Origin: Myxococcota bacterium | GTDB lineage: Bacteria; Myxococcota_A; UBA796; UBA2385 | Assembly: GCA_023150805.1 (NCBI GenBank) | Contig: JAKLKF010000038.1 | Span: 1 to 56,465, forward strand | DNA: 56,465 bases | Reading direction: 5' to 3' | Shown: positions 47,606 to 54,571 of the stretch, one piece after another | Numbering within the stretch: position 1 is the first letter of the stretch | Layout: each line of letters starts with the position of its first letter | Notes under the pieces: generated by a model | Database searches by the model: none | Seen by the model: only the letters and a program-made list of their open reading frames with translations | What the model was told of the DNA's origin: nothing | Program-made: the position numbers and the translations under genes

Positions 47606-48319
47606 TTGCAGGTCGCCTGGGCCATCTACAAGAAGGAGCTGAAGGTCTACTTCGTCAGCCCGCTCGCCTACGTCTTCCTGGGCGTGTTCCTGCTGCTGGC
47701 CGGCGCCTTCTTCTACCTGGGTGTGACGATGACCGGCGAGGCCAGCCTGCGGGTGATGCTGGGCAACCTGGCCATCGCCCTGCTGTTCCTGCTGCCCCTC
47801 CTCACGATGCGGCACTTCGCCGAGGAGCGGCGGGCCGGCACCTTCGAGCTGATGATGACGGCGCCCGTGCCGCTGTGGGCGATGTTGCTGGGCAAGTGGG
47901 GCGCGACCTGGACCCTGTGCGTGGCGCTGCTGGCGGGCACCGCCCTGTTCCCGGCGATCCTGGCCTACTACGGTGAGCCCGACTGGGGCGTGATCGCCAC
48001 CAGCTACCTGGGCCTGCTGCTGGTCTGCGGGGCCTTCGTCTCGGCGGGCATGTTCAGCAGCAGCCTGACGGACGAGCCGGTGGCCGCGGGCATGGTCGGC
48101 GTGGTCCTGCTGCTGCCCTTCTGGATCGCGGGGACCCTGGCCGAGCTGGTCGACGCCGCCTGGCTCCGCGCCACGCTGCGCCACGCCTCCTTCCTCACCC
48201 ACATCGAGCCCTTCAGCCGCGGCGTCGTCGACACGGCCGCCCTGGCCTGGTTCGGCCTGTTCACCTTCGCCTTCCTCTTCCTGACCTGGCGCTCGATCGA
48301 GTCCCGGCGGTGGCGGTAG
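47606..48319 (+). CDS. ABC-2 type permease, GldF-like
   Basis: The 237-residue protein has six predicted membrane helices and the conserved RAGTFELMMTAPV loop of the gliding-type permeases. The TTG start at 47606 is supported by GGAG five bases upstream and by its IYKKELKVYFVSPLAYVF N-terminus, which fits the family. It should form the inner-membrane channel with the preceding ATPase. The substrate is unknown. Confidence 0.88.
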   Translation: MQVAWAIYKKELKVYFVSPLAYVFLGVFLLLAGAFFYLGVTMTGEASLRVMLGNLAIALLFLLPLLTMRHFAEERRAGTFELMMTAPVPLWAMLLGKWGATWTLCVALLAGTALFPAILAYYGEPDWGVIATSYLGLLLVCGAFVSAGMFSSSLTDEPVAAGMVGVVLLLPFWIAGTLAELVDAAWLRATLRHASFLTHIEPFSRGVVDTAALAWFGLFTFAFLFLTWRSIESRRWR

Positions 48320-48327
48320 GGGGCCCC

Positions 48328-49794
48328 ATGAACCAGCAGCTCCGCCGCCGCCTGGCCTATGGCTCCAACGCCACCCTGGTCACCGCCATGGTGCTCGGCG
48401 TGCTCGTGCTGCTCTACGTGCTCGCCGACGGCAGCCGGGCGCGCTGGGACCTGTCGGCCGACGCGGCCAACACCCTGCAGGCCGACACCGAGGCCAAGCT
48501 CACCCTGCTGGACGCCGACGGGCTGCCCGTCGAGATCACCGCCTTCAGCCACCAGCGCGGCAAGGAGGACAGCGCCCTGCGGGACCGCGCGGTGCGCGAC
48601 CTGCTGGTCGAGCTGGACACCCGCTCCACCTCGCTGTCCTGGCGGATCGTCGACTTCGACAAGGAGCGGCTGACGGCCGAACGCCTGGGCGTCAACGACT
48701 ACGGCCGCATCGTCGTCCAGCGCGGCCAGGACCGGGTCGACATCAAGGATCGCGACCTGTTCCGCCGGGTCGGCAAGGGCGACGACCGGGGGCTGGAGTT
48801 CCTGGGCGAGGCGGCGCTGTCCCGGGCCTTCGCCCAGCTGCTGGCCCCGACCCGCCGCGTCGTCTACGTCCTGCAGGGCCACGGCGAGCCCTCGCCCACG
48901 GAGCGGGGCCCGGGCGGCCTCTCCGACCTGGTCGCGGCCCTGGACATCGAGCGCTACGACGTCGAGCCGCTGGACCTGCTGCGCACCGACCGCGAGGGCA
49001 ACGCCCCCGTCGTGCCCGAGGACGCCGCCGTGGTCGTGGTCGCGGGCCTGCGCGGGCCCCTGACAGCCCAGGAGGAGGACGTCCTGCTGGAGTACCTGGG
49101 CCGCGGCGGGCCGCTGCTGCTGGCCCTGGACGCCGGGCAGCCGCTGCCGGTCTTCCTGCCGCGGCTGGGCGTGCGCATCCCCGACGGCCTGGCCATGGAC
49201 ACGGTGCTGGTCTTCCCCTACAAGGACCGGCCCGTCCCCGTCTACAAGTCCCACCCGATCACCGAGACGCTGCGGGAGGGCAAGGTCGTCACCATGCTGG
49301 GAGCCCCGGCGCCGCTGCGCCTGGTGGAGCCCGCCCCCGCCGGCCTGCGGGTCGACCCCATCCTGGTCGGTGGGCGCGAGAGCTGGATCGAGCGGGGAGG
49401 GGAGTCGGTCGGCGGCAGCGCGGTGTTCCAGGCCGGGGTGGACGGCGAGGGGCCCACCGTGCTGGCGACCGCCGTCCAGCTCCTGCCCGGCGGAGGGGTG
49501 GTGCGGCCGACGAAGCCGGCCGCTCGCGTCCTGGTCCTGGGCGACAGCGAGGCGCTGACCAACGGCCTGCTGGCCGAGGGCCCCGGCAACAAGGACCTCG
49601 CCCTGAACGCGGTGCACTGGCTGGCCGGCGACGACCAGCGCCTGGGCGCCACCAAGGGCCGCCGCACCGCCGAGCGGCGCCTGGCGCTGACCCTGGAGGA
49701 GACCGACCGCCTGCGCTGGATCAGCCTGTTGCTGCTGCCCGGGCTGGTGTCCATCCTGGGCCTGGCCACCTGGAACAGCCGGAGGGGTCGATGA
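48328..49794 (+). CDS. GldG-like ABC transporter auxiliary protein
   Basis: The 488-residue protein has transmembrane helices at both ends (about 20-37 and 465-483) and a large periplasmic domain between, with YVLQGHGEPSPTERG and GRGGPLLLALDAG typical of the GldG/ABC-auxiliary family. I use ATG 48328, which has AGGGGG before it; GTG 48310 would overlap the permease gene. It probably couples the ABC motor to an envelope partner. It overlaps the next gene by ATGA. Confidence 0.85.
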   Translation: MNQQLRRRLAYGSNATLVTAMVLGVLVLLYVLADGSRARWDLSADAANTLQADTEAKLTLLDADGLPVEITAFSHQRGKEDSALRDRAVRDLLVELDTRSTSLSWRIVDFDKERLTAERLGVNDYGRIVVQRGQDRVDIKDRDLFRRVGKGDDRGLEFLGEAALSRAFAQLLAPTRRVVYVLQGHGEPSPTERGPGGLSDLVAALDIERYDVEPLDLLRTDREGNAPVVPEDAAVVVVAGLRGPLTAQEEDVLLEYLGRGGPLLLALDAGQPLPVFLPRLGVRIPDGLAMDTVLVFPYKDRPVPVYKSHPITETLREGKVVTMLGAPAPLRLVEPAPAGLRVDPILVGGRESWIERGGESVGGSAVFQAGVDGEGPTVLATAVQLLPGGGVVRPTKPAARVLVLGDSEALTNGLLAEGPGNKDLALNAVHWLAGDDQRLGATKGRRTAERRLALTLEETDRLRWISLLLLPGLVSILGLATWNSRRGR

Positions 49795-51311
49795 AGGCCT
49801 TCCGCGGCACGCTCATCGCCGCCGCCGTCTTTGCCCTGGTGTTCATCGCCTGGGCCATGCTCCGGCCCGACCCGCAGGCGCCGGTCGACGGCGAGGGCGT
49901 GCGGATCTTCACCTTCGAGAAGCACGAGCTGGTCTCGGTCCACGTGCAGCCCGCCGGGGCAGACCCCATCACCCTGGTCGAGCGGGACGGGCAGTGGATC
50001 ATCGAGGGGACGGGCTTCGTCGCCGGTCGCTCGATGGTCAACCGCGTCAAGCACCAGCTCCACGACCTGACCAGCCGCGCCACGGTGGTCGAGGCGCCCG
50101 AGCAGCCCGAGCTGTACGGCCTGGGCGCGAACGCGACCCGGGTGAGCCTGACCCTGCGCGACGGGCGGACCCTGTCCTTCGAAGCGGGGGATCCCAACCC
50201 CAGCTCGGTCAGCTACTACATCCGCCCCCTGCCCGGCGACGTCATCTACACGGTCAAGAAGTCGGCCGTCGACTACTACAGCCTCACGCTGGACGAGTTC
50301 CGCGAGCGACGCTTCGCGGGCTTCGACAGCAAGGACGTCACGCGGCTGGACGCGCGCATCGCGATGCCGGCGGGACCGCAGGGCCCGGCGCTCGACCGGA
50401 CCCTGGTGCTCGAGCGGGTGGGCGACCGCGAGTGGGAGATGCGCAGCCCCGAGCAGATGGCCGCCAACGAGGATCGGGTGCGGCGCCTGCTGGGCCGGGT
50501 GAACGCGCTCAAGGCCAGCTCCTTCATCGAGGTGCCCGAGGAGCAGGTCCAGGCCCGGCTGGCCGAGTGGGGCCTGGACGCGCCGCGCCTGGACGTGACC
50601 CTCTCCTTCGCCAGCCGCGAGCCCCTGCGGGTCAAGGTGGGCGGCGACGCCCCCAGCGACAGCCAGTTCGAGGAGCTGGCCTACATGCTGGTGGACGGGG
50701 ACAGCACCGTCTACGTGGCCCGCCGCGGGATGCTGGAGGAGTTCGCCCAGGACCTGCAGGAGCTGCGCAACCGCAAGGTCGTGCGCATGGAGGCCGCCGA
50801 GGTGCGCGCCATCGACGCCACCCTGCGGGCCGAGCCGCCCCAGGAGGACCTGGCGGGCACCGCGGGCGTGCGCTTCGCCGCCGAGCAGTGGATGTGGGAC
50901 GACGGCGTGCCGGTGCCCGGCAGCACCCCCGAGCGCGTCGCCCGCTACCTTGCCGAGCTGGAGGTGGACGCCTTCGTCGACGACCAGCCCGGCGACCTGG
51001 CCCGCTACGGCCTGGTCGACCCGGTCGCGCGCGTGGTCCTGCGCAACGAGGCGGGCGAGGAGCGGGTCGTGCGCATCGGTGACCCCGGCGAGCCGCAGCT
51101 CGACCCGGAGGGCAACCCCCGCGAGCGCCGCTACGTCAGCATCGAGGGCGCCGAGCCCGTCTACCTGGTCGACCTGCGCGTGCTCAGCGTGGTGCGCGAC
51201 CTGGTACGCGAGGGCAACCGCAAGAAGGACAAGGACGCCGAGGCCGCCGCGCGGCTGGAGCGCATCCCCTCCGAGGCCGCGCCGGAGGAGGGGGAGCAGG
51301 ACGGGCAATAG
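49791..51311 (+). CDS. DUF4340 domain protein
   Basis: The 506-residue protein has one N-terminal transmembrane helix (about 8-24) and a long periplasmic part with repeated beta units of DUF4340 type (LVERDGQWIIEG, YGLGANATRVSLTLRDGRTLSFEAG around 110-135, and a related unit near 405-440). DUF4340 genes regularly follow GldG-like genes, as here with an ATGA overlap. The last 35 residues are charged and disordered. The function is probably as an envelope component of the ABC system. Confidence 0.82.
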   Translation: MKAFRGTLIAAAVFALVFIAWAMLRPDPQAPVDGEGVRIFTFEKHELVSVHVQPAGADPITLVERDGQWIIEGTGFVAGRSMVNRVKHQLHDLTSRATVVEAPEQPELYGLGANATRVSLTLRDGRTLSFEAGDPNPSSVSYYIRPLPGDVIYTVKKSAVDYYSLTLDEFRERRFAGFDSKDVTRLDARIAMPAGPQGPALDRTLVLERVGDREWEMRSPEQMAANEDRVRRLLGRVNALKASSFIEVPEEQVQARLAEWGLDAPRLDVTLSFASREPLRVKVGGDAPSDSQFEELAYMLVDGDSTVYVARRGMLEEFAQDLQELRNRKVVRMEAAEVRAIDATLRAEPPQEDLAGTAGVRFAAEQWMWDDGVPVPGSTPERVARYLAELEVDAFVDDQPGDLARYGLVDPVARVVLRNEAGEERVVRIGDPGEPQLDPEGNPRERRYVSIEGAEPVYLVDLRVLSVVRDLVREGNRKKDKDAEAAARLERIPSEAAPEEGEQDGQ

Positions 51312-51353
51312 CAGAGCGGGCGCGCCCGCCACCTCGGGCGTCGAGGAGTCGTG

Positions 51354-52982
51354 ATGATCGGCAACGGTGTGCTCCTGCTGGGGATGGTGCTGGGCTGTGG
51401 CGGGTCGGAGCCGGCGGCTCCCGCGGGCACCGCCGCGCCCGCCGTGGGCTTCGCCGCGCCCGCCGTGGGCTTCGCCGCGCCCGCCGTGGGCTTCGCCCTG
51501 GCCTTCTCCAGCCGCGTCGACGGGGAGATCGAGCCCTGTGGTTGACCGAAGAACCCTCGGGGCGGTCTGTCCCGTCGCAACCACCTGCTGATCGAGCGGG
51601 GCCCCGAGCTGGCCGCGCGCGGCCTGCCCCTGTTCGTCGTCGACGCTGGCGACCTGGGCTGGAAGTCCGCCGCCGCCTCGCCCGCCGTGGTCGAGCAGCA
51701 CCGGAAGAAGCTCGACCTGCAGCTCCAGAGCTTCGCGCTGGCCGGCATCGACGCCTGGACCCCGGGCGAGGGGGACCTGGCCCTGGGGCTGGCGGCCGTG
51801 CGCGAGACCGCCGCCCGCCACCAGGTGCCGGTCGTGGCCGCCAACCTGCGCTGCCAGGGGCAGGCCCCCTTCCCGGCCGCGCGGGTGGCCGAGCGCGGCG
51901 GGGTCCGCGTCGGCTTCGTGGGGCTCATCGACCCCGCGCTGCTGGGCGCGGGCGGCGCCGACGGCTGCGTGGCCGAGCCGGTCCTGCCGGCCCTGGGCCA
52001 GGCCCTGGCCGCGCTGGGACCCGTCGACGCCCTGGTCGTGCTCAGCCACCAGGAGGGCTCCGCCGACGCGGCGCTGGCGCCCGCGCTGCCCCAGGGGGCG
52101 CTCGTCGTCAACGGCCACGGCGGCCTGAGCCACGACGCGGCGCTGAGCGTCGGGCCGGGCATGGTCCAGCTCGCCGCCGGCTCGCGGGGCAAGGCCCTCG
52201 GCCTGGCGGAGATCACCTTCACGGCGGGCGGGCAGGGCTTCCAGGGCCAGGCCTCCGAGGGCGACCAGAAGCGCCTGGCCCGCTTCCAGGAGCGGCTGGC
52301 CAAGGCCCGGGAGGAGCTGGCCGCCGGCGCCCTCGATCCCACCGCCCAGGCCCGCGCCGAGCGCCAGGTCGCCTTCTACGAGCGCGAGATCGCCACGCTG
52401 CAGGCCCGCCTCGACGCCGCCGCCGCCGCCGCGGGTGCGGCCCGGCACGACGTGGCCGTCCGCCTGCTCGACCTGGGCAAGGAGCTGCCCGAGCACCCCG
52501 AGACCCTGGCCCTGGTCGAGGCGACCAAGGCCCTGCTGGGCAAGGGGCCGGACGGGGCCCTCGCCGCGGCCGACGGCGGCAAGATCGCCTACGCGGGCAG
52601 CCCCGCCTGCCAGGCCTGTCACCCCGCCGAGACGACCCAGTGGCAGGCCACGGCCCACGCCACGGCCTGGAAGAGCCTGGTCGACGACGGCCGGCACCTG
52701 GACCAGGCGTGCTGGCGCTGCCACGCCACCGGCGCCTTCGACGAGGCCGGCCCTCAGCACCCCATGCAGGTCGGCCCGCCCTTGCAGGGCGTGGGCTGCG
52801 AGTCCTGCCACGGACCGGGCAAGGACCACGTCGCCGCGCCGACCGCGGCCAACATCCTGCGCGACCCCCCCGAGCTGCTGTGCACCACCTGCCACGACGG
52901 CGTGCAGGACGAGGGGCGCTTCGACTGGGAGCGCTACCGCCCGATGGTCGCGCACCGCGCGGCGGCGCCGTCCCCGCCATGA
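51354..52982 (+). CDS. Predicted selenoprotein: metallophosphatase-like domain fused to tetrahaem cytochrome c
   Basis: Read through one in-frame TGA (51543-51545) this is a 542-residue lipoprotein. ATG 51354 has GAGGAG five bases upstream; the lipobox is VLGC (Cys15), followed by three AAPAVGF repeats. The TGA sits in GEIEPCG-(TGA)-PKNPRGGLSRR, where this 5-prime-nucleotidase/UshA-like family normally has a second Cys (EPCGC), so residue 64 is predicted to be selenocysteine, giving a Cys-Gly-Sec motif. The frame continues with family sequence (LFVVDAGD, VNGHGG), a coiled coil and four haem sites: CQACH 419, CWRCH 453, CESCH 482, CTTCH 510, like cytochrome c554. It is likely a redox enzyme outside the inner membrane. 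If the TGA were a true stop only a 63-residue lipopeptide would be made. Confidence 0.8.
51432..51494. repeat. Three perfect 21-bp tandem repeats
   Basis: Three identical 21-bp copies (51432-51452, 51453-51473, 51474-51494) encode AAPAVGF three times in the linker just after the lipidation Cys of the selenoprotein. Confidence 0.9.
51558..51574 (+). promoter_or_regulatory. Bacterial SECIS hairpin
   Basis: CGGGGC (51558-51563) pairs with GUCCCG (51569-51574), six pairs including one G-U, closing the pentaloop GGUCU (51564-51568). The stem begins 12 nt and the loop 18 nt after the TGA. From memory the E. coli fdhF selenocysteine insertion hairpin has the same GGUCU loop and a similar distance. 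In the frame it codes for RGGLS, so it is both coding and structural. Confidence 0.8.
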
Positions 52983-53506
52983 GCGACCCGGCCTGGCAGC
53001 GCCCGCTCCGGGACGAGGAGCGAGCCTGGATCGAGGAGCGGCGCCGCTACTGCTTCGTGATCTACGAGGGGCGCCTCACCCCGCACCGCAGCTGCGGCGT
53101 CGCCCTGGCCGAGACCTTCGGCCTGCCGACGCCCTCCTACCAGTCCCTGCGCCGGGGCGGCATCACCGGTCGGGGCGAGTGTGGCTCCCTGGTGGCCGGC
53201 CGGCTGGTCCTGGGCGAGCTGCTGGGGGACCCCGACCCGACGGGCCCGGTCACGCCCGCGCTGCGGCAGGCGATGGAGGACTACGATCGCCAGTGGCCGC
53301 AGGCGCTGCGCCGGGGCGCGGTGACCGACAGCGTCGTCTGCAACGACCTGACGGGGCAGTTCCCGGCCTTCACCGCGCCCGAGCGCCTGTCCTTCTGCAC
53401 CCTGCTCGCCTCGGACGTCGCGGCGCTCGTGGCCGAGATCCTGGTCCGCCGCGGCCACCGGCTGCCCCCTGCGCCGGGAGATCCGTCGCCCGCCGGGCCG
53501 GGCTGA
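52979..53506 (+). CDS. C_GCAxxG_C_C family-like redox protein
   Basis: The 175-residue protein has spaced Cys residues at 25, 39, 68, 121 and 140 in the pattern of the C_GCAxxG_C_C family (RSCGVALAETFGL, GRGECGSLVAGRLVLG, and single Cys in VCNDL and LSFCTLL). These proteins are predicted redox or metal-binding proteins, often near cytochromes. It has no signal peptide. Its ATG overlaps the selenoprotein stop (ATGA), so the two are translated together and may share electrons or a maturation role. Confidence 0.75.
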   Translation: MSDPAWQRPLRDEERAWIEERRRYCFVIYEGRLTPHRSCGVALAETFGLPTPSYQSLRRGGITGRGECGSLVAGRLVLGELLGDPDPTGPVTPALRQAMEDYDRQWPQALRRGAVTDSVVCNDLTGQFPAFTAPERLSFCTLLASDVAALVAEILVRRGHRLPPAPGDPSPAGPG

Positions 53507-53545: not shown

Positions 53546-54571
53546 ATGATCGTGCTCGGCATCGAGACCTCGTGCGACGAGACCGCGGCGGCGGTGGTGG
53601 GCCCCGGCGTCGGCGGCCCCGGCCAGCCCGCCACGGCCGTGCTCTCCGACGTGATCCACAGCCAGGAGATCCACGCCCGCTACGGCGGTGTGGTGCCCGA
53701 GCTGGCCAGCCGCTCCCACGCCGACCACGTCGTCGCCACGGCCCGCGCCGCGCTGGACCGGGCGGGGGTCGCGCGGCCCGACGCCGTGGCCGCCACCGCG
53801 GGGCCGGGGCTGCTGGGCGCGGTGCTGGTGGGCCTGTGCTTCGGCAAGGCGCTCGCCGCCGGCTGGGGCGTGCCCTTCGTCGGCGTCAACCACCTGGAGG
53901 GGCACCTGCTCTCGCCCCTGCTGGAGGCGCCTCCTCCCCCCTGGCCCTTCCTGGCCCTGGTCGTCAGCGGCGGGCACACGACCCTGTACCTGGCGCGGGG
54001 GCTGGGCCGCTACGAGACGCTGGCCAGCACGGTCGACGACGCCGCCGGCGAGGCCTACGACAAGGTCTCGCGCATGCTCGGCCTGGGCTACCCCGGCGGG
54101 CCCGTCGTGGACCGCCTCGCCGACACCGGTCGTCCCGGCGCCTTCCACCTGCCCCGGCCGGTCGTGCGCGACCGGGACAGCCGGGCGGTGACCCTGGACT
54201 GGTCCTTCTCGGGGCTGAAGACCGCGGTGCGCACGCTGCTGGAGGAGCACCCCGCCGCCCCCGCCGACGACGTGGCCCTGGCCTTCCAGGAGGCGGTGGT
54301 GGACGTGCTGCTGGATCGAGTCCAGCGCGCCGCCGCCCAGCACGGCGTGACCGACGTCGCCGTCAGCGGCGGGGTCGCCGCCAACAGCCGCCTGCGGGCC
54401 CGCCTGGGCGCCCTGCACGACCAGGGGGCCCTGCGCGTCGTGCTGCCTCCCCGGTCGCGCTGCACCGACAACGGCGCGATGATCGCCCACGCCGGCCGCC
54501 TGCGCCTGCTCGCCGGGCAGGTCGACCCGCTGGACCTCGCCGCCCGGGCGAGCTGGGCCCCGGGCTCGTGA
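53546..54571 (+). CDS. tsaD: tRNA N6-adenosine threonylcarbamoyltransferase TsaD
   Basis: The 341-residue protein has the Kae1/TsaD motifs GIETSCDET, the metal-binding NHLEGH (His116, His120), VVSGGHT and SGGVAANSRLR. With TsaB and TsaE it transfers the threonylcarbamoyl group to A37 of tRNA. tsaE is at 26481 in this window; tsaB is not seen. It overlaps rsmA by GTGA. Confidence 0.95.
   Translation: MIVLGIETSCDETAAAVVGPGVGGPGQPATAVLSDVIHSQEIHARYGGVVPELASRSHADHVVATARAALDRAGVARPDAVAATAGPGLLGAVLVGLCFGKALAAGWGVPFVGVNHLEGHLLSPLLEAPPPPWPFLALVVSGGHTTLYLARGLGRYETLASTVDDAAGEAYDKVSRMLGLGYPGGPVVDRLADTGRPGAFHLPRPVVRDRDSRAVTLDWSFSGLKTAVRTLLEEHPAAPADDVALAFQEAVVDVLLDRVQRAAAQHGVTDVAVSGGVAANSRLRARLGALHDQGALRVVLPPRSRCTDNGAMIAHAGRLRLLAGQVDPLDLAARASWAPGS

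Follow-up and report, generated by a model that had tools for sequence, protein, structure and literature searches.

A predicted UshA-like tetrahaem selenoprotein with a Cys-Gly-Sec motif in a Myxococcota genome

The stretch of DNA analyzed here, in the following called the window, comprises 56,465 nucleotides (nt) of a Myxococcota bacterium (assembly GCA_023150805.1, contig JAKLKF010000038.1, here C321) and belongs to a 7.77 Mb genome assembled in 398 contigs. On its forward strand, a gene for an UshA-like protein with four haem motifs runs from an ATG at 51354, preceded by GAGGAG at 51343-51348 as read directly from the sequence, to a TGA stop codon at 52980-52982, the frame being interrupted only once, by a TGA at 51543-51545. 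The initial annotation had described the locus as two open segments of the same frame separated by a single TGA, and its coordinates were found to be right; the GEIEPCG-x-PKNPRGGLSRR block that it had read across the TGA and the four haem motifs (CXXCH) of the fusion were likewise recovered in the read-through translation. From the N-terminus onwards, the product features a short signal peptide with VLGC, a linker of AAPAVGF repeats, the block GEIEPCG-U-PKNPRGGLSRR, in which PCG-U represents residues 61-64, a domain of approximately 240 residues, a helical segment and, finally, the four CXXCH motifs. The following features were assigned to the gene:

51354..52982, forward strand: whole gene, predicted UshA-like tetrahaem selenoprotein, 542 residues when the TGA is read through
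51354..51398, forward strand: signal peptide with a lipobox-like VLGC end (Cys15), read from the translation; putatively lipidated
51431..51497, forward strand: perfect 21-bp tandem repeat, 3.2 copies, coding for the AAPAVGF linker between the lipobox and the conserved domain
51489..52217, forward strand: predicted 5'-nucleotidase/SoxB-like metallophosphatase-fold domain with a dismantled metal site (model mb7f12e3c34b6, ligand columns)
51543..51545, forward strand: in-frame TGA, predicted selenocysteine (Sec) codon (Sec64, with Cys62 as Cys-Gly-Sec)
51558..51574, forward strand: predicted selenocysteine insertion sequence (SECIS) hairpin, stem 51558-51563 / 51569-51574, loop GGUCU 51564-51568
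52263..52430, forward strand: interdomain segment of two long helices (model residues 262-281 and 287-317 according to DSSP)
52608..52895, forward strand: cytochrome c554-like domain, CXXCH at 52608-52622, 52710-52724, 52797-52811 and 52881-52895

The read-through protein (P0001) was matched by the family model NF041198, 'UshA-like (seleno)protein' (UshA_like_PCGU), over residues 43-520 with 245.6 bits (237.6 bits in six frames); because homology flanks the TGA on both sides, the split frame is more than a chance arrangement. The match covers model positions 20-514 of 519 and includes the haem region, indicating that the haem fusion is the normal architecture of this family. Full-length homology, the PCG[U/C] motif and the C-terminal haem motifs are all present, and the TGA falls on the second Cys of the invariant Cys-Gly-Cys motif.

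Among 71 genomes of the same class, 62 matched NF041198 at E ≤ 1e-30, and a match containing one TGA was counted from the rows in 57 of them, the other five holding partial matches that fail to cover the motif. Altogether, 39 TGA loci, the window included, were read at the sequence level in 38 of these 57 genomes (one genome twice; 19 unread), and in all 39 the TGA was the codon following [ED]PCG and the sole stop within the match. Read directly by the standard code, the TGA is a stop, and the locus would then represent a decayed or split pseudogene, or contain an assembly error in this base. This explanation is regarded as extremely improbable: the recurrence of the one-TGA match in the class, with the same codon in the 38 genomes read, argues against it and makes a base-call error very unlikely, the frames are intact on both sides with all haem motifs kept, and the Sec machinery is present (see below). 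Full-length TGA-free matches with lower scores also occur within the class, e.g., in G287, G198 and G203, where they sit in genomes also holding a TGA match. Of the 377 genomes sampled from the phylum, 248 matched NF041198; among the matches listed, all 50 TGA matches originate from the window's own class, and the stop-free rows come from elsewhere in the phylum. In line with the expectation that standard gene callers would truncate the gene, 13 out of 15 aligned database homologues (of the 120 listed) start downstream of the TGA position, and the gene is a clean example of a selenoprotein likely to be shortened by automatic annotation.

At the position of the TGA, Cys was found in all nine full-length TGA-free loci and in both full-length database proteins of alignment A3 (P0100 and P0116). 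Aligning the read-through protein with its Cys homologues, as the initial annotation had suggested, placed the conserved Cys at position 64, in agreement with its view that the TGA occupies a site normally held by Cys. Left out of A3 were L046 (N bases), L071 (from the genome of L034) and L009 (the window itself), and three loci remained unaligned: L036 encodes PCGC and four haem motifs, four haem motifs were identified in L035, but not the position of its Cys motif, and the match of L037 is confined to the haem part. That the TGA is read as another amino acid, either by near-cognate readthrough or by recoding of TGA to Trp, is hardly credible, since the 11 TGA-free A3 rows reaching the motif all feature Cys and never Trp, TGA terminates this gene as well as five of the seven other window genes checked, and the genome encodes a Sec machinery.

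This machinery comprises selA (480.6 bits), selB (295.7 bits), a tRNA-Sec gene (69.6 bits; anticodon tca according to ARAGORN) and two selD genes, one of them with its own in-frame TGA; the check for selA, selB, selC and selD thus found all four. Within the family, selB was above the cut-off in 9 out of 10 genomes. Because the machinery genes are present, the TGA codon is conserved and the TGA-free forms possess Cys, the selenocysteine reading of TGA 51543-51545 is strongly supported by the sequence data, and Sec would be inserted at residue 64. The proposed pairing of Sec64 with Cys62 as Cys-Gly-Sec is supported by the same machinery, by the Cys of the TGA-free homologues and by the invariance of the Cys-Gly-Sec/Cys pair in 48 of 48 sequences. 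The Sec-type selD is located at L030 (G000:C177:35018-35944) and features TCGU, the TGA-free selD being located on C344.

Downstream of the TGA, CCGAAGAACCCU is followed by the stem CGGGGC, the loop GGUCU and the stem GUCCCG, representing a SECIS candidate with a 6-bp stem, a 5-nt loop, 18 nt between the TGA and the loop and a free energy of -9.5 kcal/mol for the hairpin alone. PMC13188914 quotes the limits of bacterial SECIS (bSECIS) elements as a loop of 3-9 nt, a stem of 4-16 bp, a spacing of 16-37 nt, a G in the first two loop positions and a minimum free energy (MFE) of ≤ -7.5, and the window hairpin lies within these limits. Among the 704 TGA triplets of the window (both strands), TGA 51543 is the only one with a GGTCT loop 16-37 nt downstream that is closed by a stem of at least 5 bp, and the genome's own Sec-type selD reads GCGGTCTTGTCGG, with a GGTCT loop 20 nt downstream of its TGA. 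The best comparative evidence for an insertion signal lies at a silent position: of the 39 Sec loci, 37 use GGT as the second Gly codon (one features GGA; L046 was misparsed owing to N), and all nine Cys loci use GGC, the background being 286 GGT among 1990 Gly codons in Sec-type matches, with the reservation that the loci are related and, hence, not independent events, and that eight of the nine Cys loci originate from outside the class.

The predicted structure of the N-terminal domain (model mb7f12e3c34b6) is close to 5'-nucleotidases and SoxB, and a weak match to TIGR04486 (SoxB) was also obtained, so that a fold of the 5'-nucleotidase/SoxB type is predicted for this domain. Eight positions, which we take to be those of the metal site, were compared with two metallophosphatases of the same genome as yardsticks, one of which features Gln at one of the eight sites. 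The catalytic Asn and His of motif III (GNHE) are kept in none of 61 sequences and the motif I His in 2 of 48, the motif II Asp in 31 of 60, and the His of motif IV, like that of motif V, in 24 of 61. Among the 42 rows with all eight sites aligned, the maximum kept was five, and 17 rows kept none; the window protein retains three of the eight and, thus, neither the complete set of di-metal ligands nor the catalytic Asn-His. The designation as a metallophosphatase in the initial annotation therefore stands for the fold, as judged from the model, and fails for the phosphatase metal site, which has been lost. In the haem domain, which is matched by Pfam Cytochrome_C554, the ligands of all four motifs are invariant (61 of 61), and haem would be attached at each of the four CXXCH motifs.

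Although the family is named after a phosphatase, its conservation pattern suggests a redox protein, because the metal site has lost its catalytic residues, whereas both the Cys-Gly-Sec/Cys pair and the ligands of the haems show no variation among the sequences examined. An alternative view accepts the selenoprotein, but regards CG-U as liganding a metal or the substrate in an enzyme that has remained a SoxB-like or nucleotidase-like hydrolase, the haems serving only as a scaffold or electron store. The closeness of the fold to 5'-nucleotidases and SoxB and the weak TIGR04486 match are consistent with this view, as are the retained Asp II, His IV and His V, all three present in the window protein; the complete absence of the motif III Asn and His, the near-absence of the motif I His and the low numbers of sites kept in the fully aligned rows make it unlikely. 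With a probability of approximately 0.8, we consider the locus to represent, as proposed, a Sec gene for a periplasmic lipoprotein that combines a Cys-Gly-Sec redox centre with a four-CXXCH c554-like domain, the likely function being that of a periplasmic selenol-haem oxidoreductase. In the mechanism envisaged for this oxidoreductase, the TGA would be decoded as Sec by means of the SECIS hairpin and the selA, selB, selD and tRNA-Sec of the same genome, giving a periplasmic lipoprotein of 5'-nucleotidase/SoxB-type fold without a phosphatase metal site, for which the invariant Cys-Gly-Sec (or Cys-Gly-Cys) pair would stand in. Cys62 and Sec64 would form a two-electron selenol-thiol centre alternating between the reduced state and a selenenylsulfide, and electrons would travel one at a time through the haems. 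The periplasmic substrate that the centre may reduce would probably be a compound of sulfur or selenium, or else an oxidised thiol, both its identity and the direction of electron flow being presumed. As to the lipoprotein status, the VLGC pattern was recognized by eye, and the hydrophobic stretch of the window protein is without a preceding Lys/Arg; a simple lipobox pattern was found in 33 of 40 sequences scanned, including L052 on a misparsed stretch, and lipidation of the product is presumed on this basis.

Several observations weigh against the selenol-haem oxidoreductase interpretation. Covariation of the hairpin is weak, with one of six pairs changed on both sides (4 cells), and a hairpin slid by -2 scores higher (0.148 vs. 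0.085); furthermore, the hairpin fits 8 out of 39 loci only after a shift of its register by one, and RNAalifold on 39 sequences prefers other pairs, only four in number and without covariation. The free MFE fold differs from the one with the hairpin enforced (-12.8 vs. -11.5 kcal/mol, a difference of 1.3 kcal/mol), the fold of 71 nt around the TGA is unexceptional (z -0.99), and an Rfam scan at the hairpin gave no family at the gathering score and one row at chance level (E 8.2). On the protein side, the persistence of Asp II, His IV and His V in the window protein has to be considered, and the available part of PMC2398784 leaves UshA-like proteins out of the families with a Cys-based redox motif. 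Finally, the window protein is under the curated NF041198 cut-off (245.6 vs. 275 bits), which 22 of the 377 genomes of the phylum sample and 19 of the 71 of the class passed. Since relatives with the same gene order are above it, namely G274 (304.9, L083) and G326 (297, L080), the window protein was filed as the same kind of protein and not as an NF041198 equivalog.

Two further PCGC-type proteins are encoded in the same genome. The Cys paralogue of the tetrahaem fusion, counted among the nine TGA-free Cys loci, is located at L026:5746-7326 on contig C341, which it shares with groEL, and features GEIEPCGCP and four CXXCH. An UshA-like protein of the PCGC type (L015:1363-3741, reverse strand) features no CXXCH in the frame read, and seven of the eight phosphatase-site residues differ here, too.

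The surroundings of the selenoprotein gene comprise the following genes, the first two being Gld-like ATP-binding cassette (ABC) transporter genes:

47606..48319, forward strand: ABC-2 permease, GldF-like, below the NCBIfam cut-off; upstream neighbour
48310..49794, forward strand: ABC_transp_aux / GldG-like, below the NCBIfam cut-off; upstream neighbour
49791..51311, forward strand: DUF4340 protein; upstream neighbour in 12 of 19 relatives
52979..53506, forward strand: weakly C_GCAxxG_C_C-like redox protein that scores below both curated cut-offs; its frame overlaps the stop codon of the selenoprotein gene
53546..54571, forward strand: tsaD; downstream neighbour in 14 of 19 relatives

Gene order was compared in 19 TGA-bearing relatives with flanks (L068-L085 and L087), among which L080-L083, being the same genes as L048, L051, L038 and L046, entered this comparison alone. 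In 12 of the 19, a DUF4340 homologue in the same orientation was found no more than 900 nt upstream; it was absent in six, L074 (1.0 kb upstream only), L078, L079, L081, L082 and L085, the contig of L069 ending too early. Downstream, 14 of the relatives possess tsaD in the same orientation at a distance of up to 2.1 kb, and it was absent in L074, L076 and L078, the contigs of L084 and L087 ending too early. The order GldF-like, GldG-like, DUF4340, UshA-like Sec gene and tsaD recurs in several families of the order and, outside these families but within the class, the tsaD neighbour also occurs in L081 and L082; no part of the Gld-like/DUF4340/tsaD order is seen around the Cys paralogue L026 or the Cys homologue L086. 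The C_GCAxxG-like gene was found in just 1 of the 19 relatives (L071). A Sec form of the C_GCAxxG_C_C Pfam family is listed in PMC13188914; the frame at 52979-53506 possesses no inner TGA. ABC ATPase and KsgA genes were named by eye only, promoter and terminator scans found none, and a PHROGs search gave no match. A more tentative proposal, which we consider rather doubtful, is that UshA-like PCGU proteins have ceased to be phosphatases and are retooled forms of them, the metal site having given way to a Cys-Gly-Sec centre wired to a tetrahaem domain, and act as a seleno-haem reductase that serves the adjacent Gld-like ABC transporter (GldF/GldG/DUF4340). If true, they would be seleno-haem reductases of a new type, located in the periplasm or on the outer face.

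The doubt raised in the initial annotation, that UshA-like Sec forms might already have been surveyed, was justified by NF041198 and by three papers: COG0737 UshA-like proteins with CxU are represented by 76 sequences in PMC2398784 (the GOS paper), an UshA-like CxU selenoprotein is included in PMC9312934, and PMC13188914 includes NF041198 with the motif CxU. The window gene is a new example of this catalogued kind. For the family, listed by 2008, no tested function was found in the available parts of PMC2398784, PMC9312934 and PMC13188914, and a limited literature search, which proves little, found no paper on the lost metal site, the haem fusion or the gene order. The surprise is otherwise modest; what deserves to be followed is the combination of a lost phosphatase site with the invariant Cys-Gly-Sec/Cys pair and the tetrahaem domain, by which a testable function is suggested for the family.

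Compared to known systems, the window protein shares the PCG-U motif with the UshA-like CxU proteins of NF041198 and matches them over its full length, including the haem region; Gld-like ABC genes before and tsaD after the gene, as observed here, are unmentioned in the available parts of PMC2398784, PMC9312934 and PMC13188914. NF049981, UshA-like selenoprotein family 2, is likewise listed as an UshA-like selenoprotein in PMC13188914, but with the motif CxxU; its model of 262 positions gave no match to the window protein at E ≤ 1 and a weak match to the Cys paralogue of the window genome. The ExtKL (NF040886) multihaem (seleno)protein is also a multihaem cytochrome able to carry Sec, matched by the window protein at E 0.072 only, over the haem part. 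For the haem domain, cytochrome c554 from Nitrosomonas europaea (1bvb, 1ft6) was the top fold match, not significant alone (E 0.0096), and also a sequence match (3.1e-7), the best solved sequence match being the cell-wall cytochrome OcwA (6i5b; 1.4e-11); in contrast to cytochrome c554 itself, this domain is here the C-terminal part of a fusion. Compared to Escherichia coli UshA and other 5'-nucleotidases and to the thiosulfohydrolase SoxB, the window protein has mostly lost the metal-site residues, whereas it features Cys-Gly-Sec and a C-terminal tetrahaem domain of its own.
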